DNA from: Isoetes taiwanensis | Taxonomy: Eukaryota; Streptophyta; Lycopodiopsida; Isoetales; Isoetaceae | DNA: 64,000 bases | Assembly: GCA_021234155.1 (NCBI GenBank) | Contig: JAJEKV010000004.1 | Location: 62,001 to 126,000, forward strand | Direction of reading: 5' to 3' | Part shown: positions 9,901-61,745 of the stretch, in pieces | How positions within the stretch are numbered: the stretch's first letter is position 1 | Layout of the letters: the number at the start of each line of letters is the position of its first letter | The notes under the pieces: model-generated | What the model was told of the DNA's origin: nothing | The model's input: the letters and a program-made list of their open reading frames with translations, nothing else | Databases searched by the model: none | Made by a program: the position numbers and the translations under genes

Positions 9901-9929
9901 AAGGAAGGAAGGAAGGAAGGAAGGAAGGA
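9901..9929. repeat. (GGAA)n microsatellite
   Basis: About seven uninterrupted AAGG units. Absent from the corresponding positions in units B and C, so it expanded in copy D only. Confidence 0.9.
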
Positions 9930-20180: not shown

Positions 20181-20372
20181 GTCAATTTTATAGCATATGC
20201 TTCGTCAGAAGATACAAGGTTCTTGACTTAGCAAGATACTTCTGAAGTTACAAGTCAACTCTTCTAAACCAAAAGACCCAAGACTAAATCTCAACTACAG
20301 ATACAGAGCTGAGCCCATAAACCTAAATACGAAGAAAGAAAAAGGCTGAAGAAATCTGACAGAGAAAATCTG

Positions 20373-36593: not shown

Positions 36594-36606
36594 TGGTATC
36601 GTGAGC
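36594..36606 (+). other. Degraded primer-binding site
   Basis: TTGGTATCGTGAGC resembles the initiator-Met primer site TGGTATCAGAGC, with CAG replaced by CGTG. Confidence 0.5.
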
Positions 36607-37039: not shown

Positions 37040-37064
37040 CATTAGGGCGGATTTGGGGTCTGAA

Positions 37065-37650
37065 AATGGCCTCCTATCAGCCATTCCACGCCATATTTCC
37101 GCCTCCTTTTTCCCATGCCACCTAGGATACCAAACTCTCATAATTAGTGATTTGCTTGGAATATTCTTCCGAATAAGGGGGGATTGTACATTCATGGCCA
37201 TATGTATTTAATTCATTTGGTTGTCGACGGACTGATGCAACACGTGGCGCTTCTAAAATGCCACTTACATTATAGCATACCGCAACTCATGACGGTGTCT
37301 CTTGGTAAGCGTATGCGCGCCACCGCCTTCTACATTTCAAAAAGTTGAATGTGTAGGTTGAAGCTTTGTATCAGATCAGACTTTCATTTCGAGGCCATGG
37401 CTGCGCCTTTAACCGATCTTCACTTCATCCTAATACAAGCTTCCCCTTCTACAATTCCAAATTTGAATTTGCTTAATGTATAAAAGCATGGATTGTAGGA
37501 GAATGGACTTTTCGATTTCCATATGCACGCTGCAAATTTCAAAACGGTTAGTAGCACGGACGCTCGCCACACGGGGTTTAATTGTGTTGGGGCATAAAAA
37601 TACCACACCTTGATTTCGGGCGTACCGCGATCTACACAAGATGGAAGTTG
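37065..37650 (+). repeat. Direct repeat, copy 1
   Basis: About 590 bp, beginning AAAATGGCCTCCTATCAGCC and including TATAAAAGCATGGATTGTAG, recurs at 39,055-39,655 with indels. The pair flanks the small acidic gene and ends just before the transposase-like frame. Confidence 0.85.
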
Positions 37651-37837
37651 CTTGTTGTCAAATTAAACTTAAACACAAGTGAGGTCGGCAAGACTTACGT
37701 GGTTTTTCGAGGAGGGTTTGAGTGTTTTTTTAAATCCCAATTATCGACATAGTGTGACGTAGCATCTTGGTATTAAATAGTATGTTAAATTCAATTATAT
37801 CTGTTCATTTTTCGTTAAACTCAAATCATATAGGTTT

Positions 37838-37950
37838 AGGAATAAGGTTAAAAAAGGAAGATATTGGCTATTTAGGAATAAGGTTAAAAAAAGGAAGATA
37901 TTGGATATTTAGGTATAAGGTTAAAAAAAAGGAAGATATTAGATATGGCT
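37838..37950 (+). repeat. Three tandem 36-37-bp units
   Basis: TAGGAATAAGGTTAAAAAAG followed by GAAGATATTGG.TATT is repeated three times, with the A-run growing by one each time. Confidence 0.9.
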
Positions 37951-38138
37951 CAAATTTCGAGATATGCACATAATGGCATGTAATGATGGTTGATAGGACT
38001 GGAATACTTAATCATTCCTACGATTTTCACGCCTAATCCAAAGCCTATATCTATTCCGGCCCTAGATTGGTTTCCATTCTCCCCAATCTCCTGACCAATC
38101 TTTGCTAGATCCTCCGCCCAATTCTCTAGTCCATCGCC

Positions 38139-38453
38139 ATGAAGAGATCAAATTTTAAGAGCCTGGGAGGTGTCCTCCAAGAGGCTCTATTACGGCTGGA
38201 AGAGGTGTTCCCTCCGCTTCCCTCCTCCCCACGGTTCTTGCTCAGAATGCCTCAATTTCTCGATTGATTCTTTCGATTCCTCTCGATTCCTTTGACGAGG
38301 AATCAGAGAATGAGGAATCAGAGGAAATTTCGGAGCGTGAGTTCATCACAAGTGTTCTTTGAAGGTCGGATAGGAGATTCTTCTGAAAATGAGTATTCAC
38401 CGACGGGAGAAGAAGCCGAAGATGATGAAGAAGATGAAGAAGTTGAAGACTAA
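38139..38453 (+). pseudogene. Small acidic protein in the nested element
   Basis: ATG at 38,139 opens MKRSNFKSLGGVLQEALLRL, a possible amphipathic helix. The same frame ends GEEAEDDEEDEEVED before TAA at 38,451. Between them the ATG frame meets TGA, while a neighbouring frame reads DSFDEESENEESEEISEREF, so two compensating indels are likely. The acidic C-terminus resembles the tails of histone chaperones in composition only; I see no chaperone fold. It lies between the 590-bp direct repeats. Function unknown. Confidence 0.45.
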
Positions 38454-39054
38454 TCAGCCGGGACTTCGAGGAGCTCATGCATGCTAGTTCATGGTACATG
38501 CATGTTTTCTTTCTTTTCTTAAGCATTCAACTAACGGTTATTTTTATTTTTTTTGCAAATGATGAAGTGATGAATGAAATTTGTTAGGGGCGAGCACCTC
38601 TTATTTTTTTTTTCCTTGTTCTTGTCGAGCTTGCCTCCGCCTTTTTACCATATGACCTGCAAGCCTCAGGGCTTTTTTGTTGTGAATAGTTGAAGCCTCC
38701 GGGCATTTAAATTTACAAAATGATGTAAAGCCATACGGCCATAAAAATTTTGAATGTAAAAAGTTTTTGCTTCTAATTCCATTTGAATACCTAACTTTTT
38801 TTATCGTACATGTGTTACCACTCTTAAGTACATAAGTCATCATCCCTTTTCAAAGAGCATATTATTTTTCAAGGATCACACCAAGTTTAATAGTACATAT
38901 GCAACAAAAATGGAACACACTAAATTCGTGATGATGGTGATCCACTTTCTTATTTGTTGTCAAATTAAAACTAAACACAAGTCCCTCGCCAATAGTCTCC
39001 CATTTGCATATAAAATATCTATCATTCCAAGTTATATTATGTTTTATGAACTAA

Positions 39055-39655
39055 AATGGCCTCCTATCAGCCATTCCACGCCATATTTCCGCCTTTTTTT
39101 TCCCCGTCGATTTGCTTGGAATATTCTCCTAATAAGGGAATCGTGATATCTATGGGCCATATGTATTTAATTCTCTTGTTGTCGACAGATTGACCTTAAC
39201 ATCGCTTCTAAAAAGCCACTTGCATTATAGCATACCGCAACTCATGCGGTGTCTCTTGGTTTGTCGATACCAATCATGCGCATCACCGATTCTTGTCTTG
39301 CCCTATTTTCATTTAGAGTCCATTCCCGCCTTCTACATTTCAAAATTTGAATGTGTAGGTTGAAGCTTTGTATTAGACTTTTCGCTTCGATTTGCGATTT
39401 AGATTTAAAAAGTTCTCAGAATAGGGATCTTTACTTCATCCCAATATAAAGCTTCCCGCCCCTACAATTAATTTTGAATTTGCTTTTGTATAAAAGCATG
39501 GATTGTAGGAGAATGGACTTTTCCATATGCACGTTGCAAATTTCAAAAACGAGGTTAGTACGGACTGAGCCTCAAACGAAGCGAATTGTGCTGGGGCATA
39601 CAAATTGTACACATTCATTTCGCGCCGTGCGATCCACGCGGTATGGAAGCTCCAA
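39055..39655 (+). repeat. Direct repeat, copy 2
   Basis: Second copy of the 590-bp segment at 37,065. It directly precedes the transposase-like reading frame and so may hold its promoter (TATAAAAGCATGG near 39,488). Confidence 0.85.
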
Positions 39656-39662
39656 ATGATGT

Positions 39663-42038
39663 GTGGATAAGGATCCAACTGACTCAGGAATATGCTCCAG
39701 TCTTCAATCGCAAAAAAGAGGTCTAAAAAATAAGAACTTAGACCTCGACATGTTGCGCCTTGCAGGCTCAAAAAGTATCGACATCTGGGCGGATGGCAGT
39801 TTATATCCATTGGATCCGTTGAGTGGCAGGAAACCGTCATTTCGGGACGTTTCAAGTTTAGTCCGATTTTGTGGTGACGGTAACTCTGGCCTCTTGGGAT
39901 ATTGTGAGAGATTGAGAGAGGATGAAGGCATTCGGAATCGAATACAGTTCCTTGAGATGAGCTGCTTCCGATTGTCACAAGAGAATTATAACTTAAACCA
40001 GCAGCTCTTTTTTCTCTCGCTTCATTACTCCACTGTGATGAAGGAAAGGAATGACGGCTTCGGGAGGGAAACTTCTTTGAGATACGAGGCGGAGAAGTCC
40101 AAATTGGTGATAGGGCAGCTGCAAGAAAAGATCCAAGAGCTCGAAAGAGCAAACTTTGGGCTTCAATGTAGGTTAAAGAATTTGAAGAAAACACCCCTTG
40201 GCTTGCGAGAAAGGAAGAAGCATTATCGACCGATAGAGGAACTGAAGTTTGGATCAGGTGCATTCAGACGCAGGGTCACGGCCACAAGGTCCGTTTACAA
40301 CACTAGCAAAGGCCAGTTAAGATCTGGGGAAACTAGAAGCAATCTTGGTTACGTAGTGAAGAACCTAGCGACGAACAGGGAGATAGTGGACATGATTTGT
40401 CAGCCCTACAACTCTCCTCTCAAGAAGATGGTATTGGAAATGGTACTAGGGGAGATCTACAAGAAGTTAGAAGCGACAGATGTACAGACTGTTTGTGATG
40501 ATGTAGGCATCAGTAGGCTTGGTTACCGTTCTCTATTCAAGCCATTCCACGAAGCGTTGAAAAGAATGGGCACAAAAAAAGTATTCGCTCCACGTCCACA
40601 AATTGTCGAGAATACAAGGGTTACTAGGACAAAGATGGTGTATGCCATATTAGGAGAGATGCACCACGTTGAATGTGCTGGTCCTGCCATAGCCATAAAA
40701 AGATAAGAATGGCAAGGATTGTTGTGATATAGTTGGAATGAATGAACGCAATAATCTTTGGGTTGACCTGGTTACTCTCTTACAATTCCTTGTCAAATAT
40801 TATGACTTAACAGTTGCAGAAACTAATGGTGAGATTGAAGTTTGCATAAAATTGGATGAAATGGAACTGACCAAGTTTGAGAAGTATGAGAGGGTATCCG
40901 TTGTCATCATGAATAGAGCAATTGAGAATGCAATTGCACATGCTAAATCAAAGAGCAACAAGAATAACAAAAAAGATGTAGAGGTGACGGACGAGGAGAA
41001 GAAGCGTGCGGAAAAATGGTTCTCATGTCAATCTGAAGATGACACCTGGTGGTTAGGTCTCTTTAAAGTTCAGAAAGAAACCCACGAGGTTTTGAAATGG
41101 GTGTTCAATCAAACTGACATCCCGAGTCTAATATCTAGATTCGAGGGAGGGGAAAAATTGCAAGTAGATCACTATGGATCTTACAAAGTAATTTTTCACT
41201 TGGCGTCTGATTTAAAAACTGAGAAAGCAATGTACAACATAAGTGGAGGAGGACAAGGAACATGCAAAAGTTGTCTGTACTGCAATCATGCAAGGAAGTC
41301 AAGTACTGGGAAGACTGTTTCAACCTTGTCCCTTAACCAAGCAAATGCTCCTAATAGAGGAGAAGAAGATCCCAAGTTCCATGGCATTTTCCCCATTCCA
41401 TTAGAGAGGGTTCATATCTGCACTTTGCACGGCTTTGTGAGAATCATCGACAAGATGATATTTTTGAGCTGCAGATTCGTGTGGAACATTTCAGACAAGA
41501 AGAGAAGAGAGGAAGGAATTCGTAGAGTTGAACATGTTCTATCGTAATGTGTTTGCATGGTGGCAATGTAAGATTAGAGCTCGATGAGAAAACGCGGTGA
41601 AGAACAAGTGTGCCTCGTGAAGGTGTCAATTGGAGGGATGAAAGCCTCGGACGCTTCATAAAGAATCATAGAGAGGCTCGGAACGGAAACCCGGATGGGG
41701 AGAAAAGGTCTATGAATTTGAAAATTGCCGGTTGATGCGGAGCGTGACCGCACGCATGCATGCTCGCTTCGGCATTGAGGAAAAAAAAGCATGGGATGCA
41801 TTGTCTGAATTGTTCCCATACATTCGCGAGAATGGACCTCACAAGAGAAGATGCAGAAATGTTCGCAAAGTTTAATAACAAATTTATTAAAGCTTTCATA
41901 GACGATGGGGGGAGAGTGAAGTCACGACTACTTGCACATCTTTTGGGCTCATGCACCTTGGTTTTTAGGAAGTATGGAAGCCTAGCAAAGGTGGAGTGCA
42001 CAAGGCATGGAGAAGTCGTGATAAACAAGCTAAAATAG
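39663..42038 (+). pseudogene. Large transposase-like protein of the nested element
   Basis: Open frames 39,663-40,706 and 40,738-41,547 join through a one-base shift in an A-run near 40,700. A further piece is open at 41,760-42,038. The first ATG is inside (MLRLAGSKSIDIW near 39,750), as the track start is GTG. The N-terminal third has a coiled coil (KLVIGQLQEKIQELERANFG). The middle has FHLASDLKTEKAMYN, then GGGQGTCKSCLYC (CxxCxxC) and, 60 residues on, VHICTLHG (HxxxxH). The end has AHLLGSCTLVFRKYGSLAK. An Asp followed by CxxC and HxxxxH recalls the zinc-binding insert of RAG1/Transib-type DDE transposases. That is my inference, not a family match. Confidence 0.5.
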
Positions 42039-42304
42039 CCTTTCATCGTAACACTCAAAGAGGGGTGGAAATGTGGGAACCAACCCTCTAAGACAGATGT
42101 GAGTGGTTTTATAGAAGGGCGATGGCTAAATCACGACAAGAAGGTCGCTTTAAGGAGCAACCCGTAAGTCGAAACACCATTGGCATAATGTGAAGAGAAA
42201 ACGGAAAGTTGCTTGGCAAAATTCTAGGCCCCACTAGCATCGCAAACAGTGGAGATCTAAGAGACAAAGAATCGGTAAAGTATACTTGTAATGTGTAGCA
42301 TGTT

Positions 42305-42436
42305 CACACGACGCGAAGTACTTGCCTCCAACCTTGTTTGCACAACCGTAGCTTCGGCCGTGTGATCTTATTTGTATCATACCTGCCAGCAATGGAGTTC
42401 GCTATTGCTTGCATTTATGTGGCTTCGCGTCGTGTG
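42305..42436. repeat. Inverted pair of the CACACGACGC motif
   Basis: CACACGACGCGAAG at 42,305-42,318 faces CTTCGCGTCGTGTG at 42,423-42,436, a perfect 14-bp inverted pair (longer with flanking TT/AA). It lies between the transposase-like gene and the first minus-strand cargo gene. Confidence 0.85.
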
Positions 42437-42965
42437 TGAAGCTTTACAAGATAATAATAAAAAGGGTTACTTTTGATTAAAGTTGTGAAAGATGTTACAT
42501 TGAAAAACAAAATACAACGACTCATTGTTGCTCCAAAGGCGTAGCTCTTCTTCATTATCTTCATCATCATCATCAGCTCATTCCCTCGCCTTTCGTCTTT
42601 CATCTCTTCCCCAAGCGAGCAATCACCCTATCCAAACGTTCCTCCAATCTGTCCACCATCTCTTTTGTACATGTCCCGCCTCTGTCCCAATAGCACAACG
42701 TGTTCTTACGCTCGAATTAGCATCCTCGTTGCCCGTCATAACCACCTTAGTGCGCTTGTTGGGGCATGTCATCCCGTCCTACCCTTCTATTCAACCACCG
42801 ATTTGCCTCTCGGCTACGAAGCATAAGAAGGTTGAATTCATTCTCTTCTTCTTTCTGCTGAATTGTAACGGCGTTTTCCTTTAGAAGATCATCTTGCTCC
42901 TTCAACCTCTTCATTAGAACACCCAACACTATGTCGAAGGGAGTTCTATCCTCTTGCGTTTTCCA
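42430..42965 (-). pseudogene. Coiled-coil cargo protein 1
   Basis: ATG near 42,965, then after a frame change PFDIVLGVLMKRLKEQDDLL, KENAVTIQQKEEENEFNLLM and, further on, MVDRLEERLDRVIAWGRDER and an acidic ADDDDEDNEEEL end. Heptad-like Leu spacing suggests a coiled coil. PFDIVLGVLMKRLKE matches PVDITLAVVMKRFKE of the copy at 45,364, so they are one family. Frame changes break it. No known domain recognised. Confidence 0.45.
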
Positions 42966-43439
42966 TTATCAGCGGTTGAGGATGTGGAGGCCATAGATGA
43001 CAAATGGGAGGGACATTAAGATTATAGAAGTGAGGAGCAAAGACTCTAACCGGCGGAAGGAGCACATGCAAGGACCTCAATTTATACATATTAGCTTTTG
43101 AACATATTAAACACACTGGCCGCCGTGCCGCGACGTGTCGAGGGATTCACGGTTGTCCGCTAGAACACATTAATGGTACCGTCCGGCTGGAACACATTAA
43201 TAACTATTCTAACTATTAATCAGATATCACACCCACGCTGAATCAGAGACAGAGCTTTAAAACCCTATGAAGGGTTTTCGCCGCGGTGATCTATCTTGTC
43301 ATTCTCTACCACGGATATTGAAAATTAAAAATAGGAAACGTAATATTCGGTAAATTTGTCAAAAACTTTTCCCATTTAAAAATAAAACCAATTACAAACA
43401 TTAAAAAAAAAAACGGGCCCCTCTAGGAGGAGCCCGATG

Positions 43440-43862
43440 CCTATGATCGCCGGGCAAGCTCTTTTCCGGAGGGCGTTGATAATTTTTTCACTGCTCCTCC
43501 AACATGATTGCTCGCCCTCAAGAACCACGTTCTCATATTCCGCGAACCTTATCTTTCCCGGGCCATCGAAGTTGGGCTCGGCAGCCTCTCCCGGCCGATT
43601 GCGGCCCTAAGCCCTCTTGGAGGTTATATCTCGTGGAGCTGCATTACGCGGTCTAAGGCAGCCCGCTGATTGTCGTGCACTAAAATCACCTCCCCAGCAG
43701 AAGGCGGCCTTTTTCCTGCCGCGAACCAGCTTGGCGACGTCTTCATCATTTTTTCTTTTAGAAGGCGGATCCGTTCCTCCGCTTCAGCCGCGAATGTTCA
43801 ATTTCCTTGACCAAAACTTGAGACAAGATCTCTAAGCAGGATGGAACCGAGCTGGAGGCCAT
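43440..43862 (-). pseudogene. Cargo protein 2 (MASSS start)
   Basis: Starts MASSSVPSCLEILSQVLVKE, then after a shift AEEERIRLLKEKMM-like sequence and VILVHDNQRAALDRVMQLHE. A TATATAAAG lies about 95 bp upstream on the minus strand, the same spacing as in the next two genes. Probably a distant relative of the other coiled-coil cargo genes. Product unknown; frames are interrupted. Confidence 0.4.
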
Positions 43863-44479
43863 TGAAAGTGATGGGAGAACAGGGGAGTGATGGCTGAGGG
43901 CGGATGTGGTAGAACGTAAGATGGTGGATAGGAGAAGACAAAGGCCTCCGACGCTTTATATAGAAACTAGAGATCGTTGGAATCTACGGTTGCTAAAACC
44001 GATAAAGTTGTGTAATAATCCCACGAGGCTTAAATTATAGCATGCAATTAGGCAACGGTAGTCTATGTTCGCATCATGGGATCCGTCATATCCCAGCCGT
44101 ATTGTATGCAGGCCGCATAAAAAGACAATGTTATTGTGGCGGCAAGATGCCACGCCCTGGCATGACGTTGTCATCCACAAGCCACGATGTGAATAGACGT
44201 TGTCATCCACATGCAAATTCGCATTTACCTGCAAGTTATATCACATAATCTAGCTAGATATTTGTGTTACATACACTTTTCCATTAATAAATTATGAATT
44301 TATACATACAACGAGGTGTACGTTGTGGAGATCATACGACGCGAAATCCATTGATTGCTACCTAATTGCAAGAATGGCATTTCAAGGCCGTGGTGATCTT
44401 TTAATAAAACAAAACAAGAGAACGATAGAAGCAAGAAATAGAGCAAATTTTTCTTTGAAACAAAAAAATATATATACAA

Positions 44480-44827
44480 TGGCTACGGATCTTCATGATC
44501 CTCAGAAGTCGGCCGTCAAAAAGCGCGTTCTCATCCTCCTAAACAAGCTTCTTCTCCATATCTTCTAGCGCCACGAATATTGTGTGCGATTAAAGCGCCT
44601 CGACCTACGGCTATTGGCCCTCGGCACTGGTTAATGTTGTGCGAAGCTCAAGGTCTCGCTCATGCAAAGCCGACCCCTAGTGAATTCTATCTGGCACCGC
44701 CTCCATCTTCTCGACGCAGGGCGGCTGTTTTTATTGCGGAACCTCCTTGAATCTCTTCATCACCACAGCAAGGGTGATGTCCGCTGGGTCCCGGTAGCGG
44801 TCGCCTGGAGGAGGATGAAGATGCCAT
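44480..44827 (-). pseudogene. Cargo protein 3 (MASSS coiled-coil family)
   Basis: Starts MASSSSSRRPLPGP. A shifted frame gives PADITLAVVMKRFKE, and the end has DMEKKL..EDENA. It is a diverged tandem copy of the gene at 45,364, with the same upstream TATAAATAGAAGAC. The upstream 5' region contains a tandem GCCTTCC run. Interrupted by stops in this sequence. Confidence 0.45.
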
Positions 44828-44937
44828 CTGAGGAGAAGGCGTATATGGAAGGCGGAAGGCGGAAGGCGGAAGGGGAGAAGATGAGCGTAAGAAGGCGGAA
44901 GGCTTAAGAGGATCTGAGGTCGAAGGCAAGATAGAAA

Positions 44938-44951
44938 GTCTTCTATTTATA
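44938..44951 (-). promoter_or_regulatory. TATA promoter of cargo gene 3
   Basis: Minus strand TATAAATAGAAGAC, identical to the one at 45,850. It is 111-124 bp before the ATG, a plausible core promoter distance. Confidence 0.6.
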
Positions 44952-45363
44952 ACATGGATTTCGAGTAGCTTGAGTCACACGACGCCAAGGATGCCGTGGG
45001 TGGGGAAAATCGACCGTTACTTCTCGGCCGCGGTGAGGAAAAAGGACCGTTACTTCTTCTAACGTCTTTTCTTCCAGAAAGCTCGTGGGTGATAATTTTT
45101 ATTGATAATTTCGGTGATACAATCTATACATAAGTAATTTTATCGATACATAACTAAAGATAGAACTTCTCATTGAAGCAAAATAGAAGCGGCATGGAGA
45201 TCACACGACGCGAAATCCATTGATTGCTACCTAATTGCAAGCAAGGCATTTTAGGCGCGGTGATATTTTAATAAAACGTAACATACATTGGAACAACAGG
45301 ATAGATAGAAGCAAAAAATAGAGAAAACTTTTCTTTGAAGCAAAAAATAGATAGATACAATGG

Positions 45364-45766
45364 CTAGGGATCTTCATGATCCTCTAGCTGATTTTCATGT
45401 CCGCGGTACTGAAGCCGTGAGGTCGCGTTCTCATCCTCCGCATTTCGGAGCTTCTTCTCCATATCTTCTAAGGCTCACAAATCATGTGAGCAGTTTAACC
45501 GCCGGCCCCCGCTGCTCGTCGCCTTCTTGGTACATGGCTTAATGTTTCCACGAGCTCAACGTCCCGGCCAGGTCGGCAGCAGCTCCCTCGTGAAGGTTAA
45601 CTAATCGACCATTGCCTCATTGTTCTCGGCGAGAGGCGGTTGTTTTCATCATGGATCTCCTTGAATCTCTTCATCACCACTGCAAGGGTGATGTCCACGG
45701 GCAGCTCTGGGGCTGGGGAGTGCTATCTTGGCATGGTCGCTTGCTAGAGGAAGATGATGATGCCAT
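45364..45766 (-). pseudogene. Cargo protein 4 (MASSS coiled-coil family)
   Basis: Starts MASSSSSSKRPCQDS. A shifted frame reads PVDITLAVVMKRFKEIHDEN and NRLSAENNEAMVD, and the last part is DMEKKLRNAEDENATSRLQ ending HENQLEDHEDP before TAG. Mostly helical and charged, about 130 residues. It belongs to a segment of about 870 bp that is duplicated at 44,330. Product unknown. Confidence 0.5.
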
Positions 45767-45849
45767 CGGAGCGAAGGTGGAAGGCGGAAGCCGGAAGTAG
45801 AAGATGAGCGGAATATGGAAGGCGATCGGAGGTCGCGGCGTGGACATCG

Positions 45850-45863
45850 GTCTTCTATTTATA
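45850..45863 (-). promoter_or_regulatory. TATA promoter of cargo gene 4
   Basis: Minus strand TATAAATAGAAGAC, 84-97 bp before the ATG at 45,766. Shared with cargo gene 3. Confidence 0.6.
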
Positions 45864-46479
45864 ATATGAGTCACACGAGTTGCTTCTCGATCGCGGTGAG
45901 GAATAAATAAATTAATTGTCTTTTTCCAATAATATTTCATTTCTTGAGATAGATATCACACCACGCGAAAACCTAGATATGATGAAAAAAATCAGGACCG
46001 ATGTATTTGGCGTGATGTGAATAAATACAAATAAAATAATTTTTATTAGGAATTTCGAAGGACAATCTGTACATAAATAATTTTACCGATACAAGTTGGA
46101 AAACATATAACTTCCAATTTCTCAAGCTTGTGTCAATTTCATGCTCTTTCAATCCCTCGCCAAGACTTGATCCAACAAGGCAATGACTTCCATGTTATCG
46201 ACCCCGACTTCCAACCTTGGGTGAGTCAAGCCGGCAGACTAAAAAAAATTTAACATATTGCTCGCGTCACAGACCGGCTTTGGTCGTCAAAATATTGTAA
46301 CACAACATCCGCCGGAAGTGCTATCACCCCTTCGGTGTTTGATGCCAATTGGGAATGGTTCGAACATGCATAATGCACGGAGGTAATAGACAAACTCGCA
46401 CCCTTTGACTGAAAGTTCTGGCGAAGACGATTATCTCCCATTAACGAATCTTGAGATATATCTTAACAATGTAGAGTCC

Positions 46480-47092
46480 TTCAATCTTTCCTGTCCGCCC
46501 GTGCATGTCGGCAAGAAAAATCATCTACTTCCCACAAATAAGAACCCTCAAGATTATCTTCTTCACATTTATCCTCATCTACAGGCTTATCTTTGATTGG
46601 TGAAGGGCACTGCCAAACCTCAGATCCCGTTGGCGCTTTGCAGGAGATTGGAATTCTTCTTCCGTTGGTAGATTAAGCCTCATCTTGAGCAAGTCGAGAC
46701 TCCAGCCTCTCATATGCTTCTTTAAGCTTTATAGCATTGCCGGTATAATTAGATACTTCAAACATCTCTTTGTCCAAATCCTCTTCAAAAATCTAGGCCT
46801 AAGTTTACCCATTCGCCAAGGTACTTGATAAGCTCGTCTTCCCTAGCACACATTAAGTAACATAGGCGGGTTCCTCGGTATATCACTTAGCAATAAGTAT
46901 TCTTTGCCTTCCACTAAAATTGGCGTTATGTCGGACAACTTCTTTTCATCCTCATCCCCATCCTCATCACCTTGAATCATCTCCCTCCTCCTGGTTCACC
47001 CCAAAGGCGTCGAAGCTAAAACTCCTACATTCTTGCTCTTCTTCTTGTAGATCTATCTCCATTTCTACGTCATAGTCGGCATCATCACACAT
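46480..47092 (-). pseudogene. Acidic cargo protein 5
   Basis: ATG at 47,092 opens MCDDADYDVEMEIDLQEEEQ, then SFSFDAFGVNQEEGDD. After a shift come DEDGDEDEKKLSDITPILVE and EGKEYLLLSDIPRNPP. Later frames give DELIKYLGEWVNLGLDF and KLKEAYERLESRLAQDEA. Composition is strongly acidic with a helical end. Nothing in it matches a family I know. Acidic proteins near a histone gene invite the idea of a histone-binding partner, but that is speculation. Confidence 0.45.
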
Positions 47093-47116
47093 AACCGACC
47101 CCTTGGCTTAAAGATT

Positions 47117-47626
47117 TCATTGTTTCAAGTGTATCTTCGGGTTTGGCCGAAAGAGAATGCAATAACTAGCAAATGCAAAGCAAAAAAGAGAAATAAGATA
47201 CCTTCTTAAGCACAAGGACGAGCCGGGGAGGAGCCCGCGGCGCGGCATTCTTGAAAACATCTTCCCGTTTTGCAAATGGGAAGCCGCCTCCTCTAGAGCT
47301 GGTTTTGGAATCCACGAGCGGGGACATCCGCAAAGGGCGTCTTGCCGAGACCAAGCGGTCTGGGTGAAAGCTAAAAGCAACCTCGCGATAGCATCCAAGC
47401 TCGCATCTTTGTTTGCCATGATGTCCAACTCCTTGCAATAGAACGGATAAATCATGATCGCCGCCAACTTCCTCGTTGTCATGAGGGGCGGATGCATACC
47501 ATTCGTGAACTTCACATAACAATCCATGGCGAAGCAAGCAGCGAAAACAAGAAGATGTTTAGGGGCGGTAAAAGTAGCCGGTCGCTTTGAACTCAAGTAG
47601 CCGTTGTCGATTATGAAAGGGGACAC
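47117..47626 (-). CDS. Unrecognised cargo protein 6 (169-residue ORF)
   Basis: The longest uninterrupted frame of the cargo block, from MSPFIIDNGYLSSKRP. The middle (MDCYVKFTNGMHPPLMTTRK, then DASLDAIARLLLAFTQTAW) looks like real protein. The basic end is uncertain: AAG/GTATCTTATTTC near 47,200 could be a splice donor, and the acidic gene starts about 25 bp after this frame ends, so the two might be exons of one gene. Function unknown. Confidence 0.4.
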   Translation of the reverse strand: MSPFIIDNGYLSSKRPATFTAPKHLLVFAACFAMDCYVKFTNGMHPPLMTTRKLAAIMIYPFYCKELDIMANKDASLDAIARLLLAFTQTAWSRQDALCGCPRSWIPKPALEEAASHLQNGKMFSRMPRRGLLPGSSLCLRRYLISLFCFAFASYCILFRPNPKIHLKQ

Positions 47627-47654
47627 GGCCGTTGTGGGGAGATTTGTCCGTACA

Positions 47655-47683
47655 TTTTAGGGTTAGGGTTAGGGTTAGGGTTG
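47655..47683. repeat. Short interstitial telomere-like repeat
   Basis: TTTAGGG followed by three TTAGGG units. The plant-type unit TTTAGGG occurs once and the rest are six-base units. Too short to be a telomere. Confidence 0.85.
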
Positions 47684-47852
47684 GATCCTGCTGACTACTA
47701 CTATGTGCAACAAAAAGCACAATGCTTGTGGCGTCGTGTGATCCTCCATTATAACATTCAAAAAAAAAAAAAATACAAAGTGCAGAAGCTAGGCTTCTAA
47801 GAAAGAAATGGACTAAGAGATTAAGCTTATAAAGCCATTGCATTAAGAAATA

Positions 47853-48757
47853 TTATACATATGAAAAAACACAAAGGCACTTCACGGCCTTTTTTCCGGG
47901 GGTCTTTCTTCTTGTTGTATTCAGCCATAAAATTTTGACCATAGTTTTTCGGGATCCCTTATGCGTAAGGCGTAGCATGTCCTTGGGCATAGCAGGTCCT
48001 GCGCTTGGCATGTATTCTTTGCAAGCTGCGAGTCCTCGAACAGGCCGAGCACAAGCGCTTCGAAGCCATTTTGAAGAGCATTTAAAGGCGGTTGCTTGCT
48101 TGATTACTATGCTTGGTATGATGTATCGCACAACACTCTTGCGGGGAATCTCTCTCACGAGCGGCAAATGGGAGGCGGAATGACCATCTCGGTGCTCTTA
48201 CGATACTTCTTAATCGGCGCTCTTTAATACCAGGCCGTCTTCGCTTAGGCCTCTACCCTCACCCACCCCACATTTGGAGCATTTGCTCGGCCGGCCTCTT
48301 CGGCCGCCTCCTCCTCACTCGGCATCTGCGAGCGATTTCCTCGGCCAGAACTCTTGCGGCGTAGATCTCCTCACATTCACAAGTAGCCTTCCCTTTACGG
48401 CGTTGGGCCTCCTCCTCGATTTGAAGGTCCTAGCACCTCCACGGGGGAGGCAGGAGGAAGCGAGGAAAGAGCAAGAAGAGGCGGCTGCCCAATAATTAAT
48501 CCGGCATCATATTCTTCGCCACGTCTCTCTCACATTTTCATCCTCGTCTCCGAACCGGAGTGCACCTCCCTACTTACTCCGTGAGCTGCTTCTCCCGCTG
48601 ATGCGTCATGCGATTTCTTTTCCGGGTCTTACATTAGGCATGGTCGGAGGAGGAGAATCTCTATCGAGACTTCAGAGATCAGATGAAGAAGGCGGACTAA
48701 TGTAATCACCGGCCTTACACCACGGATGGATCCTTGCATTTGTTTAGTTCTTGCCAT
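47853..48757 (-). pseudogene. Diverged histone H3 in the nested element
   Basis: ATG at 48,757 (good context, GCC before and G after) opens MARTKQMQGS; the first six residues equal canonical H3. The histone-fold landmarks appear in order near 48,240-47,930 but in different frames: KRRRPGI, KKYRKSTEMVI, LVREI, ALQNGFEALVLGLFEDSQL and MPKDMLRL. They correspond to the H3 RPG, KYQKSTELLI, LVREI, ALQEAAEAYLVGLFED and MPKDIQLA segments. One break falls where H3 has the CAG codon of PFQRLVREI. If unspliced, the N-terminal tail would be about 180 residues, far longer than in H3, and the C-terminus has a basic extension. Canonical H3 wraps DNA in nucleosomes; this one is very diverged and its role is unknown. 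Confidence 0.75.
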
Positions 48758-49616
48758 GGCTTCTCGGCCGGATGGCGCTTTATACTACTGAACAACGACA
48801 AAAATAGACAAGCTGGCGAGGAGATAAATAGTAAAAAAACGAAGTTAAAGTAAAATATGATGGTAGCGTTTTTAAATAATTATGCGGAACCCTAAAAAAA
48901 TATCGGACAAAATACGGAACCCTAAAAAACATCGGACAAAAACACAAATAAAAACCGAGATTCAAAGCGCTAGCCGATAGACAATTTCTTGTTGATCGCG
49001 AACTCACTAAACTTTACATTTCCTCTTGCTCAGAACCAACCCTAATGCCATCAATAAAATAATGGAAGTCGTTAAACAATTTCCTCTGTCTCCATTAGCA
49101 CTCTTAGCTCGATAATGGCCATTAAACTTTCCATGGTGGCCGTATAAATGACTTCCTCCCTCTCCATACTCGAATATCCACCGATCGGAGTGTCTATTAT
49201 GGTCCTCAAACGGCTCCCAAAAAGTTGTGCACCCTCTCTTTTACTTTTCCTTCGTTTCTAGTTGACAATTAACATTATAAATATTGTTTTGGAAGAAAGT
49301 ATCCGAACTTAAAGAAGGACTTAACTACGCGGACCTCTGTTAGTTGACCGGATGATTCGTGGAATCGAACATCCCGTGTCGGAACCAAAAATAAGCCATC
49401 CACAAAAATCTAGGGGAGAAAGCATTATATGTCTTGAGACTTTTGAACTTCCGCCTATCCGAATATGTTAGCAAATACCTCAAAGCGGTGTGTGAAGATT
49501 TTTGAAACTCATCCTCACGCCTCCGTTTTCAGACATTCCCGCTTGCACCTCGTCAGCCATGCATTTCTTCATTGCAATTACATTGTTCTCATTAGTCCGT
49601 GGCTTACAAAGTTCAC
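48758..49616. other. Cargo-block spacer, weak coding traces
   Basis: Low-confidence minus-strand pieces only (for example MAYFWFRHGMFDSTNH near 49,400). A TATAAAG at about 48,780 is too near the H3 start codon to be a convincing promoter. Confidence 0.3.
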
Positions 49617-50347
49617 TTAAAGGGGCAATTCAACCGCCTCAAGCTTCGGTTTCCCGACCTTTACGTTATAATCATGTCCGTAAAACCGGATGCCTATACC
49701 CAAGGTCACGACATCCATACCTTGGAAAAGGACAATTAGATGTCTATGTGATACGACAAGTACACTACTAATACTTTCGGTAGGAATGACATCCACGACG
49801 TCGATAAACATAAACCTCGCACAATAAATTTGTTTGTAAACACGTGTCGAAAAGAAATGAAAAGATAAGAAGATCACACGACGCGAAACTATCTCTCACG
49901 CCAGATTAAGTAGGCGACGGTAGCTTCGGCGTCGTGTGATCCGTTTTAAGGTGGTTACCATTTGCGGGCAATTTTGGGAAGCTATTTTTGGTGGAGATTA
50001 GCTCTTTGGCCATATCGGAAAGGGGTATATGCATGTATTGTTATATATTCCACTTTCCAGGCGCTAGAATTCAACTTGAACTCTTTTATCCTACCTATCC
50101 AATGTGTCCGCATCGCGTCGACGCCTTTGTCGCTTAACTCTATGCTCGCCCCTCGTTGATGGCAAAGATACTCACCTGAACCTATTGAGACAAAACCTCC
50201 CACTTCTTGACCTTGGGAGTTCGTAGAATGGGGCAAGAACACGAAAATTACGGGGAGACATGGATTGCGGATGAGGAGTGAAGGCGGAGAGGATGCACGA
50301 GGCAGCCCGGAGTGACAAGATCTGAAGTTGGCGCCAAAATTTGACAA
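49617..50347 (-). pseudogene. Unrecognised cargo protein 7
   Basis: Two open minus-strand pieces, 49,982-50,347 and 49,617-49,877. The first contains GVDAMRTHWIGRIKEFKLNS and WKVEYITIHAYTPFRYGQR, which loosely recalls BAH domains ('yIGrI.ei', then a 'v.v.wyyrP' strand), but the similarity is weak. The second has IPTESISSVLVVSHRHLIVL. The inverted 73-bp CACACGACGC hairpin separates them, so they may be different genes. Function unknown. Confidence 0.35.
49875..49938. repeat. Second inverted pair of the CACACGACGC motif
   Basis: GATCACACGACGC at 49,873 faces GCGTCGTGTGATC ending near 49,941. It is a 13-bp perfect inverted pair spanning about 70 bp. Confidence 0.85.
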
Positions 50348-50745
50348 GGGAGTTGGTGGCGCCCGGCGAGGGCGGTCAAAGTCACCATTATTTTGGGCGG
50401 CGACTCGAAAAAATACGGGCCATTAAAATGGTTGCAATAAAAGCGCAGCATCCCTATGAAAATACGCCATGTGGATGCCAAGTAAGCCCCGCTCATCCTT
50501 CTACCCGCCAAGTAATCTGCGACTTTTTTAAGAAAAGGCGCCAAACCGATTGGTCTGGCGACCGGGACGGCGGAAATCTTTAGCCCAAGATAAGGGGCCA
50601 TTTTCAGACCCCAAATCCGCCCTAATGGCGCAAGCCGTGAGACCATTAGGTAGAGAAAGTCTGAAATAAGTGTAGATTTTAATTAAATAGGTGCCTTGGC
50701 ATGATAAATTGAGCAACTCGAACTCCGACCTAAAAATTTTCCAAG

Positions 50746-50850: not shown

Positions 50851-52131
50851 ATGGCCTTAACCAAACAGACCGCCAGAAGCGTCGCCGCCAGCGAAACCAC
50901 CCGGCGCCCACGGAGGCTGAGATCATTCGATGATGCCCGCGAGAGGCTCGCGAAGGGGGTCGTCGCCTTCTGGACGAAAGAGCGGACACGTCCCGGTCGA
51001 TCGGACGCCTTCAACCCGCCAGGTGGAACAGACGAGGCAACATCACCAACCTCCATGGACGAGGAGACAAGGGAGGTATATGAGGAAATAGAGCGGAGAT
51101 CCAGAACAAGAAAGAGCAAGACCATTCAAGCAGCCACGGAGATCCTCGAAAGCGGGGAAGAGCGGTGACGGTCCGGAGGCCAGAGGAAGCAGACTTTTAG
51201 AAGGTTCATTAGGAAATATGAACGCGGAGAAGAGGAAGGAAGACAAAAAGAGGAAAAGGGAGGAAGAGGGAACAGTAAAGCGAGAAGAGAAAAAGAAGGC
51301 GAAGGGGAAGTTCGTGGATAGCACAAGGAAGTCAAGGATCAGCCCACGCCGAGGAAGAGGCCTAACCCCAAGATCGTCATCAAGGAGCTGCAAGCCGACG
51401 AACCTCCCAACTCCTCCGGACGACTCTTCCCGATGGGGACTTCAACCCTAATGCTGCAGGTGAAAGCTCTTCTAAGCACCCGGACGTGAGACGTGTAGTG
51501 CCCGACCAGCCAAAGACCGGAAGCAACCCCAGCCAAGACCAAGTGCGTAAAACCCCCGAAAATTCGGATGGGATAGAAAGAAGTACACCACGACCTTTGC
51601 GTGGAAGCTTACGCCACCGGTGGTAAAGATATAACGAAAAGAAAGATGAGGGAGCACGAGGCTTATATGAAGAAATGGGAAGCCTACAGCAAGTACTATG
51701 AAGAAAACAGGTGGTCGTGATCATCGCGAGGAGGGCGGCCGACAAAGCAGTTATAGACCTTGAAGCCGCCACCACCAAAGCCCAAGGTCCCTGCCACCAC
51801 CCAAGAAGAAGGTAGACAGGAAGGAGGGGTGGAGAGGAGGGAGATTAGGAGACTTAGGCAACAAGAGCTACTTGACTTTAATCCCCGCGCCCCCTTTGCT
51901 CCGTTAGTGCGCAGAAGTAATGCGTGCCTACGTGACGTAATTTCCGCGGTCATCACTTGCCGAGGCCGCTAGCAATGCAAGAAGCGGCCGAGGCAAAGAT
52001 AGTGCAACATTTTGAAGATTCAACAGCCTGCACTGTCCACGCCAAGCGGGTAACCCTAATGCGACAAGACATGAGTCTTGCGACCCGCATAAAGGGAGAA
52101 CGCCCTTAGAAGCGTTTTTTGTAAATAATTG
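50851..52131 (+). pseudogene. Retroelement gene 1 with an H3-tail-like N-terminus
   Basis: ATG in good context (A at -3, G at +4) opens MALTKQTARSVAASETTRRP. After Met removal, A.TKQTAR matches residues 1 and 3-8 of histone H3, with Leu for Arg2. The first frame runs to 51,168 with a charged helical part (DEETREVYEEIERRSRTRK). A second frame, 51,218-51,451, is very basic (KRKEDKKRKREEEGTVKREE), and more pieces follow to about 52,130 (KRKMREHEAYMKKWEAYSKY). There is no histone fold. It has its own TATA promoter and lies between the nested element and gene 2. Role unknown; it could be a chromatin-reader ligand or a nucleic-acid-binding gag-like protein. Confidence 0.5.
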
Positions 52132-54502: not shown

Positions 54503-55420
54503 GTGTATGCAGCTAGAAGCCTAAACGCAGGAGAACGTCAACTGCGAGAACTTATGGAAGAACAGAGTCCGCCCAGGCCACGCCCGGCAAGGAACCTGCT
54601 TGAAGAATTTGGACAAATGACCCCAGAGGAAGAAATATCGCAAATGAGGACGGACCTTGAGCAGATAAAGGCTTTGCTAGCCGCACATGCTGTGAGCAGG
54701 TTCGGGTGGCGCTCCAACCCGCCGCAAGCGTCAGCTCGGAGAACAGGAAGAGACAAGAAGAGGGGCAAGAGAGGAAGGTCCCCCAGTTCGGACTCCTCCG
54801 ACTCAAGCCCAGATTCAGACTCCGATTCCGAGGAAGAAGAAGAGCAGAACCAAGACCGAACAGATGGAAGGCGAGGAACACCCGACCCGGGACGACAAAG
54901 GGACACAAGAACCTCGACTACCGTAAGAAAGTGGACTCGCATTGGGAAATGTTTGGAAGGCCGGGAAGCTCGAAAGGCAATTCTCAAAGCGAGAATAGGT
55001 CGCATGGAGGGAAGCTTGGCTTGACGAGATGAGTGAATATGGCAACACTTATGGTATGAAGGATAAGGATAAAGCGTGGTAGCAACCGCAAACCCGAAAG
55101 GAGCAAAGACGCATTTGGTGGGAAGGGTTATGCCAAAGCTCATGGCTTAAGCGGGGATGCTTGCGGTGTTCGTGAAGTTTGCTAAAGCCTTCAAAAGCGC
55201 CATTACGTTCCAAGAGAGCACAAGTCCAAAGATGATCTTGGCCGGTTCTGAGGTTGCGGCAAGGCAACAAGTCGGTCTGAGAAATATCTGAGAGGAGTTC
55301 ATGAATTTGAGGTATGTGCCAAAGTTAGGTGAGAAGCATGCGAGAAAGCTACATTGAAGGTCCGAATGAGGAGATCCGCAAGCTTGTAAGGGCAATAAAC
55401 CCTAGAACAATGCTCGAGCG
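54503..55420 (+). pseudogene. Gag of the chromodomain retrotransposon
   Basis: 54,503-55,024 is open: an N-terminal helical part (RQLRELMEEQSPPRPRPARN, EEEISQMRTDLEQIKALL), an Arg/Lys-rich stretch (RRTGRDKKRGKRGRSPSSD) and a Ser/Asp/Glu-rich linker. Further gag-like pieces follow in shifted frames (GRNPRTML-like AINPRTMLER near 55,400). Gag forms the particle that packages element RNA. No clear CCHC zinc knuckle could be read, perhaps because of indels. Confidence 0.6.
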
Positions 55421-55954
55421 GAGTCCAAGGCAATAAGCTTGCAAGGAGCGGGACCTGAGTAGCGGCGGAGGCGGTATTATCGAGGACAAAGGCAAGGCAA
55501 CAGTGGTTTTAGCGAGGGGCGGCCCGACCCGGGGACCCGGCTAGAGCCCCATATATAGTAGCAATCGGGGAAGCGGCGGGGAGAAAAAGCGGTGTCCTTT
55601 AAAGATAGCGAGGAAGGGTCAAACTACTCCAAAGCGGTGCGATCCTTCTTGCGAGCCATGCCCAAGGAGAAACGAGGAGTGCATAAGCGGCTACGCCCGG
55701 GTGCTTCCAGCGGGCCATAGAACGGCGAAGCGCCCATACGTTATGAGTGCGGCACTAGCGAGTTGGGGATTGGGACACTCTGGCGGCGGCGGCGAGGAAG
55801 CCCAGCGACTACATTTGGGGTGAGTGTCATATCTTTGCCGCAATAGATCTGAGCAAGCGAGAGCGGTATAAGGTAATTTCCCGATTGGGAAAGGCCAAGG
55901 CCAAGTCATTTATAGTCTGATAGATCGGGGAAGTAGCCATAACCGCATCCCAGA

Positions 55955-58900
55955 ATGGCCCAAATGTTGAAGTTGAAACCATTAAAGTCAAAGCCAAGGC
56001 CCGTTGTCTTAGCAAGTGGAGCGGTAGAAGGCGGGGCGGCAGGTAAGAGAATCAACCGACATCGACTTACCGAGGGGATTAAAATCGGATGGGGGCGAGA
56101 GGTAATGGGCATTGGGAAATCTGACTTGATCATAGGTATGGAGTACCTTGGACCAGCGAGGGGGCCATCATTGATTGTGGAAGCGGAAAGTGACCTTCCC
56201 AACACCCGGCGGCAAGATCATTGAGATCCGCGGGTAAAGAAGTTGTCCCCATCATGCGGTGTATGTCTTCTAAGCGGCTGTTCAAGTGTATCAAGAGTGA
56301 GCAGGTGGCATACATCTTCAAGCTTGAGATTGAAGAGCGAGTCGAAAAGAGAGTGAAGAAGATAAAGTGCTCAACAAGCTGCCCAAGCGGATAGCTAGCG
56401 ATCCGCGGAGTTCCATGAGCTCTTCCGGATGAGATCAAGCAGCTCCCTCCTTATAGGGGAGTCGAATGCGAGATAGCACTTTCGAACGGGGAACAAAGCC
56501 GACAAGCAAGGCTCCATATAGAATGACAACGCAAGAGTTGGCCGGATTTGAAGAAGCGATTTCGGGAGCTGCTTTCGACCTAGGTTTCATTAGACCTAGT
56601 GTCTACCGCCATTTGGGCGCCCATTCTTTTTTTGTCAAGAAGAAAGATGGATCTCGAGGATGTGCATAGACTATAGGCGGTTGAATAAGCACACCATCAA
56701 GAACAAGTATCGCTTCCAAGATCGGGACGACTTGATGGATCAGCTTCAAGGAGCAAAGATCTTCTCAAAAATCGACTTAAGGTGGGGCTATCATCAGATC
56801 CGGATAAAGGAAGAAGATATCCATAAAACCGCCTTCGGGGGCGGTATGGGCACTATGAGTTCACGGTAATGCCTTTTCGGCTTATCAAATGCCCACAGCG
56901 TTCATGAGGCTCATGAGCGATATCTTGGGGAGTTCCTAGACACCTTTGTGATTGTTTTCTTTGATGACATTTTGGTGTATAGCAAATCCCTTGAAGAGCA
57001 TGTACAACACTTGAGAAGAGTCTTTGGAGAAGTTGAAGAGGCACCAATTATGCATGCCAAGTTGTCGAAGTGCCACCGCAACGGAGAGGGTGGAATACCT
57101 TGGTCATGTGATTTCAGCAGAAGGCATCTCGGCGGACCCGCCAAGATTGAAGCGATGATTCAATGGCGGCGCCCGAAGAAGAATGCATGAGGTCGAAGTT
57201 TTTCTCGGGCTAGGGTACTACGGGGAAGTTCGTGAAGAACTTTGCTAAGATAAGCGCCCCCCGATGCGCGGACGACAAAGGCGAGAGAAGGTGAAAGATT
57301 GGGCGAGCATTGGCACAAGAAAGCCCAAAAGGGGTTTGAATTGTTGAAAGAAGCTTTGGCGACAGCCCTGTCTTGACCTCGCGGACCGGAGAAAGATAAG
57401 CTTGTAGCAGCAGATGCAAGTAAAATAGCTACAGGGTAGTGCTTATCACGGGGAAGAGCGTGTGGTAGCGTATGACTCCGGGAAGATGAACGGCCGAGAC
57501 GTGGCGCTACCCAACGCCACGACCGAGGAATTGCTTGCGGTTGTCGGGGCACTAAGAATATGGAGGCATTACCTCTTAGGAAGGAAGTTCCAATTGGATA
57601 CCGACCATGAGCCTCGGTATGTATTCACGCATAACCACACCTTATCTCGAGGCGGCGGAGGTGGATGGAGTTCCTCGAGGAATATGACTTTGATATAGTC
57701 TACAAGCGAGGGGGAAGCTCAATGTGGTAGCGAGATGCTTTCGAGGCATCCCCCGACAACTAGAGTGCATTGCAATGCAATTTCGGACTCTCCGGCGACT
57801 TTGGTAAGAAGATTGAAGAGTCCTTGCCAACGGATGTGGATTTCAGAGAAATATGGGCAAGCCTCTCTAGGGAGGCTAGAAACGAGATAAAAAGCGGGAA
57901 GCCTTCAAGCATTATAAGAAGGAGGGCAACTGTTATATCATAAGGACAAGTTGTGCGTGCACGAGTCATCGGGGGTAAGGAAATTGATCCTCCATGACAC
58001 GCATACTGGCCATGCGCGGCTATTAAACATATTTCAAAGCTTGGCGGCTATTATTGGCGGGGAATGAAGAAGCGGTAGCTCGCTACATCAAGGAATGTCG
58101 GCTATGCCCGGCAGACAAAGCGGGCGACTTAATTCGAGGGGGCATTAGAGCCATTAGCGGTGCCAAGCGCTAAGTGGGAGGTGATTAGCATGGATTTCAT
58201 CACAGGGACTCCCAAGGACCGTCCCGGAGGGAAAAGGCGGCTTTGATGGTGGTAGTAGACATAAGTTGTCGAAAATGGCACATTTTGTGCCTTGCGGGGA
58301 CCACAGAAGGCGGCTATGGATCTGGAAGCTCTTCACAAAAAGAGATCTTTAGGCTTCATGGCATGCCAAGGGAGATCATCTCCGAGCGAGGGATCCGAAA
58401 TTCATGGCGCCTTTTGGCGGGGACCTCTTTGCGACAATCGGGCGAAGCTATCCATGAGCACGCGGCATATCATCCTCGAGACGGATGGCCAAGCGGAGGC
58501 GGACCAACGAGGATTTTTAGAGGACATGCTACGAAACTATATGCGGAATAAGCAAGGTATGTGGGAAGAATTTATTCACTTGGTGGAGTTTGCATACAAT
58601 AGCACCAAGCGGGGAATCATCCCAAATGTCGCCGTTTATGATCAATTCGACTATCGATTGCCTAACTCCGGACACTTGGCACAACCCGTGTCAAAAGTGG
58701 AAGTTTAGCGGCGGATGTTGGCTGATATGCGGCGGCTTGTGGAAGAGGTTCGAGGGTATCACGCTAGCGGCAAGAAGTCGACAAAAGAGCATCGCCGACA
58801 AGCATCGAACGTAAGAGAGTTCAAAGTTGGAGATGATGTTTGGCTCAAGATCAAGGTGAAGCGGGTGGCTTCGGGTTGGGAATTGCAAGAAGCTTGCTCC

Positions 58901-59293
58901 AAGGTGGGCTGGACCTTCGAGAATAGTCGAGAGAGTAGGTAATCAAGCCTACAAGCTAGACTTGCCAGCACACCTAAAGATTCATAAGGTCTTCCGCGTG
59001 AGTTTGTTAAAAAGCACACTCCAAACCCGGGCGAAGTCTTGGACACTCAACGTTGTTGGAAATGGCGGAGGAGGAAGGCTGGAGATAGTTTCGAATTGAT
59101 TCTTGATAAAGCTTTCAAGAAAGCGAGGAGATCAGAATTCCTCCAATACTTGGTCAAGTGGAAACACTTACCCGGTGGAAAGGCGACATGGGTACTTAAG
59201 AAAGATTTAGTAAGCGGTACCCACGGTTTATGGAGCAATGGGGCGGCAAGGTCATCTCAGAAGAAATCGGCTCGGGCATGTCGATTTGTGTAG
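55955..59293 (+). pseudogene. Pol: protease, RT, RNase H, integrase, chromodomain (broken)
   Basis: KSDLIIGMEYL near 56,130 is the end of the protease. RT: GFIRPSVYRHLGAHSFFVKK, MCIDYRRLNKHTIKNKYRF, IFSKIDLRWGYHQIRI and the catalytic VIVFFDDILVYSK near 56,955 (FFDD rather than the common YxDD/FxDD forms). RNase H: TTEELLAVVGALRIWRHYLL near 57,525. Integrase pieces cover about 57,960-58,710 (HDTHTGHARLL; MKNKQGMWEEFIHLVEFAYN-like). The end, 59,096-59,215, is a chromodomain: ILDKAFKKARRSEFLQYLVK followed by WKHLPGGKATWV. This order is that of chromoviruses, whose chromodomain steers integration to marked chromatin. Dozens of frame changes occur. Confidence 0.85.
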
Positions 59294-61740: not shown

Positions 61741-61745
61741 GCAAG

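Follow-up and report, generated by a model that had tools for sequence, protein, structure and literature searches.

In the genome of Isoetes taiwanensis, two unrelated classes of mobile element probably carry a histone H3: a DNA transposon with terminal inverted repeats, which holds the gene as cargo, and chromodomain retrotransposons (chromoviruses), in which an H3 protein encoded by the first open reading frame (ORF1) is a standard part. For ORF1, identity, presence in multiple copies, mobility and purifying selection are demonstrated. The analysis suggests that the elements may use a histone of their own to deal with host chromatin. Both histones were found in the window, by which we mean the whole stretch of 64,000 nucleotides that was analysed.

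The H3-like gene from which the analysis started lies on the minus strand. The original prediction placed a diverged H3 gene at 47853..48757. The homology covers 48757 down to 47949, and the last 96 nucleotides of the predicted interval fall outside it. The ATG of MARTKQ is at 48757; it is followed by an extension of about 500 nucleotides and then by an H3 core broken by frameshifts. All the predicted blocks were located: after MARTKQ come RPG, KYRKSTEMVI (within 48161-48214), LVREI (within 48141-48161), ALQNGFEALVLGLFED (within 48020-48085) and MPKD (within 47973-47990), spread over different frames with the order of H3 kept. A frameshift-aware search of this strand, proposed together with the prediction, was significant and reached H3 residue 135 at 47949. 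Against a plant H3 the score was 153, whereas 100 dinucleotide-preserving shuffles averaged 33.7 and never exceeded 49. A chance match of motifs, already judged very unlikely from the letters, is ruled out by these shuffles.

The gene is located within a DNA transposon of 13.6 kb (37040..50627). Its inverted repeats of 39 bp (37040-37078 and 50589-50627) are 95% identical, and its outer end reads 5'-CATTAGGGCGGATTTGG. The transposon-like interval proposed for this region is therefore real, inverted repeats standing at both ends, and it is nested, as had been supposed, in a retrotransposon whose long terminal repeats (LTRs) are bounded on the outside by a GCAAG duplication. Immediately next to the DNA transposon, where a target-site duplication would stand, the window has GCGAAAG and GCGCAAG, 7 bp with one mismatch, as read in the window copy only. 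When the 905-bp H3 stretch was searched in the 1.66-Gb genome (535 first-look candidates, 40 scored), at least 40 full-length matches were obtained, window included, the other 39 being 84-87% identical. Eight matches (L035-L042) were read together with the stretches where their right ends were expected (L043-L050). In all eight, similarity to the window stops at 50627-50633, the outer edge of the inverted repeat, and the flanks differ. The left repeat of the window also matches at the right ends of these eight copies, and the exact repeat-end string is present in six of them. That a mobile element carries the diverged H3 is thereby borne out by at least 39 further full-length matches, of which the eight that were checked end at the inverted repeat.

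Three open frames of 348, 282 and 96 aa on the plus strand of the transposon (39660..42038) are, by position only, a putative transposase. No Pfam family scored above cut-off in these three, and the hAT dimerisation domain had no Pfam match over cut-off in them or in the part of the other frames that was covered. If they do encode the transposase, it would belong to a superfamily not yet classified. Sequence from the transposon's terminal region recurs 2 kb further in (37063-37618 and 39053-39622, in pieces 80-96% identical), perhaps because the end was duplicated or because part of another copy is nested there. Just past the H3 gene, still within the transposon, TTAGGG is repeated 4.3 times (47657-47682).

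The H3 blocks are recognisable in nine copies of the DNA transposon, with single changes in some. Copies elsewhere in the genome were thus found in number, but none of the nine that were read has an H3 frame uninterrupted over its whole length. L039 and L041 have the longest open pieces, which cover much of the core, and the frame breaks differ in place from copy to copy. Pooled pN/pS is 0.58 over blocks that were chosen for conservation, which makes it weak evidence either way. Because none of the nine copies is open throughout, the minus-strand H3 of the window resembles a relic rather than a gene for a working protein, though some of its frameshifts may stem from assembly errors. The roles suggested in the original prediction, packaging or marking element DNA or interfering with host nucleosomes, would be hypothetical for this copy. 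We consider it probable that this H3 is cargo that came from an ordinary H3, reached at least 40 places and is by now broken in most or all of them.

The retrotransposon that hosts the DNA transposon spans 35031-61740 on the plus strand, between two copies of the 5-bp duplication GCAAG. Its 5' LTR (35031..36591, the 3' end being approximate) starts with TGTGGCGTTCC. The 3' LTR (60172..61740) is preceded by the purine tract GGTGGGGAGAA and followed by GCAAG (61741-61745). The two LTRs are 88.8% identical including gaps, with 77 mismatches and 81 indel events. The sequence read directly after the 5' LTR, TGGTATCGTGAGC (36594..36606), is the primer-binding site, which we take to be of the initiator-Met-tRNA type. 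Downstream, tblastn with the gag-RT part of a related element described below (L021) detected a gag to protease/reverse transcriptase (RT) region (54768..56895, E 1.5e-38, 24-28% identity). The RT itself lies in two open pieces (56600..57190), one matching PF00078 above cut-off (E 5.7e-8) and the other below it (8e-6). RNase H, integrase and chromodomain follow (57201..59209, tblastn with L021, E 3e-80), the chromodomain PF00385 scoring E 1.1e-6 in 58988-59290. As the chromodomain is present, the outer element is a chromovirus (Ty3/gypsy LTR retrotransposon) in the sense of PMC6317226; direct LTRs that begin with TG and the 5-bp duplication agree with this.

This retrotransposon has an H3-like gene of its own (50851..52108, plus strand), a second and better H3 that was absent from the original prediction. 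It is located outside the DNA transposon, between the 5' LTR and gag, in sense orientation. It starts with MALTKQTAR, continues with a long charged extension, ends with a C-terminal H3 core and is broken by indels. In frameshift-aware alignment to plant H3 it scored 176 without a jump, the highest of the shuffles reaching 65. When a jump is permitted, the aligned stretch begins with MALTKQTAR at 50851 and extends to 52103, and a stop lies at 52108. Residues 92-135 stand in a single frame at 51972-52103 (tblastn E 2e-13), and the gene matches the Histone family PF00125 with E 1e-10.

The Histone profile was searched throughout the genome (8705 first-look candidates, 150 scored). The top 15 of the 150 rows look like ordinary H3, matching from profile position 2, and the eight that were read are each 136 aa long. 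Of the remaining 135 rows, 55 belong to open frames that are 300 aa or longer, and in 36 the frame has 400 aa or more. Twenty of the 135 were read as 10-kb stretches (L009-L028) and the other 115 were left out. As the rows with top H3 scores were taken and long frames preferred, this sample leans toward intact, conserved copies. At all 20 loci the H3 core forms the end of a longer ORF, or its remains. The LTR family was detected by blastn in 17 loci (not in L016, L019 and L028), gag-pol in 19 (not in L017), and in 15 the LTR end is followed by a TGGTATC[AG] primer site; wherever LTR and gag were both found, the H3 is placed between them. L021, which has H3 and gag-pol, matches Pfam families for capsid, protease, RT, RNase H and chromodomain, with the zinc knuckle below cut-off. 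Its integrase has zinc and C-terminal parts over cut-off and a core below it (E 8.7e-7). Its order of gag, protease, RT, RNase H, integrase and chromodomain is that of the chromoviruses. Perfect 5-bp target-site duplications flank L013 (GTGGC) and L021 (CAATC). An exact 30-mer spanning the junction of purine tract and 3' LTR occurs 490 times in the genome, not every one of which need carry H3, and its reversed control does not occur.

In complete ORF1 proteins, of about 410-450 aa, a unique N-terminal domain of about 200 aa (N-domain) is followed by a charged linker, then by a basic stretch and finally by the H3 core, which matched PF00125 at the C-terminus with E 2.7e-42. By their starts we distinguish subfamilies A (MPRFKLT or near), B (METVKQ and the like) and C (MANTKS, one locus). 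They are 42-45% identical over ORF1, with nearly identical cores. No Pfam family matched the N-domain, nor did any PDB chain with an E-value of 1 or less. Among 60 of the 177 PDB chains matched, an ORF1 profile aligned with H3.3 and H3 from position ~324-344 and with nothing earlier. In a homologue search in which the 7934 candidates that had most words in common with the query were scored, an ORF1 alignment gave 5089 matches; six of the best 120 were read (the top five and one other) and are repeated H3s. The N-domain occurred in none of 121 proteins, namely the best 120 of the 5089 and P0001. The latter, a 266-aa H3 on a metagenomic JGI contig, was the single match among 1319 candidates to the joined plus-strand copy of the window; its H3 has a longer C-terminal part. 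A 45-aa piece used as query found no homologue, and a scan of IMG/VR gave seven pattern matches, none of them confirmed.

Between ORF1 and gag there is often a second frame, ORF2, of up to about 480 aa (for example L019 4558-6018, in element sense). A frame of more than 300 aa with the ORF2 motif is present at 10 of the 20 loci and missing in L021. ORF2 had no Pfam match over cut-off, and a profile comparison gave no relation between it and the N-domain of ORF1. A further open piece was observed between ORF2 and gag.

The core of ORF1 is identical to host H3 at 82-87 of 98 positions in all 13 complete copies, with synonymous sites saturated. We took 25 H3 positions to be contacts with DNA or partners. 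In all 20 copies 21 of these are unchanged; positions 42, 53 and 64 vary, and 86 is unlike the host in every copy. I89, A107 and S/G105 are common to the 20 element copies and absent from all eight host H3s, which argues for one capture of H3 by these retrotransposons. The tail has been changed more. ARTK is absent from all 20 ORF1 frames and ARKS from 19 of them (some of these frames being incomplete); in L020, ARKS lies about 50 residues before the core and thus ahead of the actual tail. Six of the 20 frames retain STGGK, which is part of the normal H3 tail, and the ORF1 tail is not wholly new. A centromeric H3 was considered and rejected: the core is of the ordinary type, and none of the 60 PDB chains (of 177) is named CENP-A.

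The relationship between the two H3s of the window was addressed by cross-scoring, with eight shuffles each and with tail plus core as the retrotransposon queries. The plus-strand H3 scored 186-195 with subfamilies B and C, 182 with plant H3 and 156-168 with A, its best score being with B. It has neither S/G105 nor A107 and keeps MALTKQTAR, and for these reasons it may have branched off early or go back to a capture of its own. The minus-strand H3 scored 176 with plant H3 and 124-136 with the retrotransposon H3s, which puts it nearer to the former. As the minus copy prefers plant H3 and the plus copy subfamilies B and C, a single H3 common to both elements is not favoured.

Purifying selection was estimated by Nei-Gojobori dN/dS between complete ORF1 copies, six of A and five of B. 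For the H3 core the ratio is 0.02-0.16 in 15 A pairs and 0.01-0.06 in 10 B pairs, being below 0.1 in 24 of the 25. The N-domain gives 0.05-0.24 in 11 of 15 A pairs (the other four saturated) and 0.04-0.11 in the 10 B pairs. The linker is looser than core and N-domain: 0.15-0.36 in 12 A pairs, with one pair at 1.17 where dS is 0.06 and saturation in two more; in B the range is 0.05-0.31. For the basic tail, values are 0.05-0.29 in A (one pair saturated) and 0.11-0.74 in B. For comparison, RT has 0.01-0.03 (six pairs of four copies). These ratios are biased downward, that of the core most, because the copies were picked from the top of the H3 ranking; the N-domain has no part in the H3 score, and for it the bias comes solely from having favoured open frames. 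ORF2, at 0.07-0.23 in seven pairs (eight A-B pairs being saturated), is by this measure a second protein of these retrotransposons under purifying selection.

Some of the insertions are recent. The mismatch distance within LTR pairs is 1.8% for L013, 2.7% for L021 (main piece), 4.3% for L009 and 4.5% for L015; L026 has seven mismatches in about 707 sites, and no LTR pair was found for L016 and L019. The substitution rate of rice is 1.3e-8 per site per year, at which the four distances correspond to 0.7-1.75 million years as upper bounds. In four of the five LTR pairs tested, L026 being the exception, single-base indels dominate among the indels and are nearly as common as mismatches. Indel-rich pairs include those of L009, L013, L021 and the window element (35031-61740). 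We think that these single-base indels are probably residual long-read assembly error, which would inflate the number of apparent pseudogenes in this genome. Because they look like assembly error, the LTR ages are upper bounds and some of the frameshifts in the H3s of the window are perhaps unreal.

Several other explanations have to be weighed. One is that pseudogenes of ordinary host H3, or host genes resembling H3, lie near transposons by chance, and the host does have many ordinary H3 genes, as the 15 top rows of the Histone search indicate. However, the eight DNA-transposon copies that were checked share the end of the element rather than being host pseudogenes without it, an outcome that the original prediction had named as one that would count against it; the H3 of the retrotransposons has the LTR on one side and gag on the other at the loci in which both were detected; and the three diagnostic residues separate all 20 element copies from all eight host genes. 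For the copies examined this explanation is refuted, and in general we hold it to be highly improbable. Equally improbable is a role in camouflage, by which H3 would be kept since small-RNA silencing of the element would also hit an essential host gene. The amino-acid sequence of H3 is indeed strongly kept, but synonymous sites between element and host H3 are saturated (pS 0.80-1.04 with L001 and L005), and for that reason similarity to host H3 in DNA or RNA is not what is being kept.

It is harder to dismiss the view that H3 was captured by accident and is copied along as a passenger without helping the element, which we nevertheless consider unlikely for the elements as a whole. It fits the DNA-transposon H3, with its nine broken copies and its pN/pS in chosen blocks, and it has a precedent in Pseudocercospora fijiensis, where, according to PMC6710886, captured H3 copies are inactivated except for the original H3. 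ORF1 does not fit it: subfamilies that have diverged so far over the whole protein keep a nearly unchanged core, with the very low core dN/dS given above. A passenger thus appears to be the better reading for the H3 of the DNA transposon. A different possibility is dominant interference, in which ORF1 would compete with host H3 or poison its deposition, loosening heterochromatin and allowing transcription of the element. It is consistent with a protein that keeps most core contacts, has a rewritten modifiable tail and has gained a part of 300 residues, yet a strongly toxic histone would presumably be costly in many copies. We give interference about the same modest chance as the passenger view.

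The boldest reading, which we hold to be somewhat less likely than not, is that in a lineage of plant LTR retrotransposons a captured histone has become a protein that the element cannot do without. In it H3 would be joined to an element-specific domain and bear a tail that the H3K4 and H3K9 enzymes of the host should read poorly; it could form silencing-resistant or element-marked nucleosomes or, together with the integrase chromodomain, dock the integration complex on chromatin. On this reading the DNA transposon acquired its H3 independently of the retrotransposon. As to the mechanism within the more probable account given at the outset, ORF1 would be made from element RNA and, being the first ORF of the genomic RNA, should be the easiest to translate. 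Its H3 fold would pair with host H4 and be handled by host histone chaperones. Since the features required for H4 pairing and DNA wrapping are preserved in the core, these chaperones could deliver ORF1 to chromatin with the N-domain attached. The fused N-domain, perhaps together with the particle or the integration complex, would then be carried into chromatin alongside the chromodomain. Alternatively, ORF1 nucleosomes on or near the element might not be markable in the normal way by the H3K4/K9 machinery; lacking the ARTKQTARKS start of the tail, they should resist the usual marking at these residues. Such resistance could aid targeting or delay the silencing of new copies. Of the three, we find tethering a little more likely than resistance to silencing or interference, which sequence alone does not separate from it.

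Histone H3 in transposons is already known from fungi. The original prediction knew of no transposon described with its own H3; this does not hold, as hAT transposons carrying H3-like genes (H3L) have been published for Pyrenophora tritici-repentis (PMC3538342) and for Pseudocercospora fijiensis and relatives (PMC6710886). The likeness consists in a DNA transposon with terminal inverted repeats and an H3-like coding sequence, present in tens to hundreds of copies; the P. fijiensis element has an 8-bp duplication and a transcript-derived H3 (PMC6710886), and many H3L copies of P. tritici-repentis may be active (PMC3538342). The DNA transposon described here works likewise. In contrast to the fungal elements, it resides in a plant, measures 13.6 kb, has no detected hAT domain and carries an extension after MARTKQ; and here there is, in addition, a separate LTR retrotransposon, one of whose conserved ORFs is an H3 fusion. 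Pack-TYPE elements and Helitrons are comparable in holding a host gene within the ends of a transposable element, as treated in a 2026 review of gene capture by plant transposable elements (PMC13317346); the word histone is absent from its main text.

For the retrotransposons, the closest known systems are the plant chromoviruses, whose clades are CRM, Tekay, Reina, Galadriel, Tcn1 and Chlamyvir (PMC6317226). They share the LTRs, the Met-tRNA primer site, the order gag-protease-RT-RNase H-integrase and the chromodomain after integrase; in that paper the word histone occurs once. Unlike them, the elements described here have extra ORFs before gag, the first being the H3 fusion. ORF1 resembles ordinary H3.1/H3.3 in its core, in 21 of the 25 contact positions and in its best PDB matches (H3.3 and H3), but it differs by lacking the canonical tail start, by I89, A107 and S/G105 and by an N-terminal part of about 300 residues. 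With CENH3 it has in common an H3 core behind a long, dissimilar N-terminal part, whereas its core is of ordinary H3 type in the comparison made with host H3 and PDB chains. According to PMC3350952, the chromodomain of MAGGY binds H3K9me2/3, while for the group II chromodomains of plants no binding partner was identified. Among the titles and abstract openings listed from open-licence literature, preprints excluded, we found no LTR retrotransposon that encodes H3 as a conserved ORF.

It is mainly by way of histone H3 marks that transposons are silenced. A retrotransposon with an H3 gene of its own, a core under strong selection, a rewritten tail and many recent copies would be the first, within the literature searched, to supply a component of the nucleosome itself. 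How chromoviruses relate to chromatin becomes a testable question here, namely whether ORF1 enters nucleosomes, where these are located and whether they are free of H3K9me2. In addition, genome-wide annotation of histones in plants can be swamped by transposon genes.

The window contains further features. Positions 1-10280 consist of tandem 3.7-kb units up to 97% identical. An L1-type LINE reverse transcriptase with a zf-RVT domain lies at 15308-17692 on the plus strand, and an exostosin (GT47) gene, probably of the host, occupies two open pieces at 18592-20204 on the minus strand. A 283-bp inverted repeat at 23195-23941, 98.6% identical, points to a recent hairpin or insertion.
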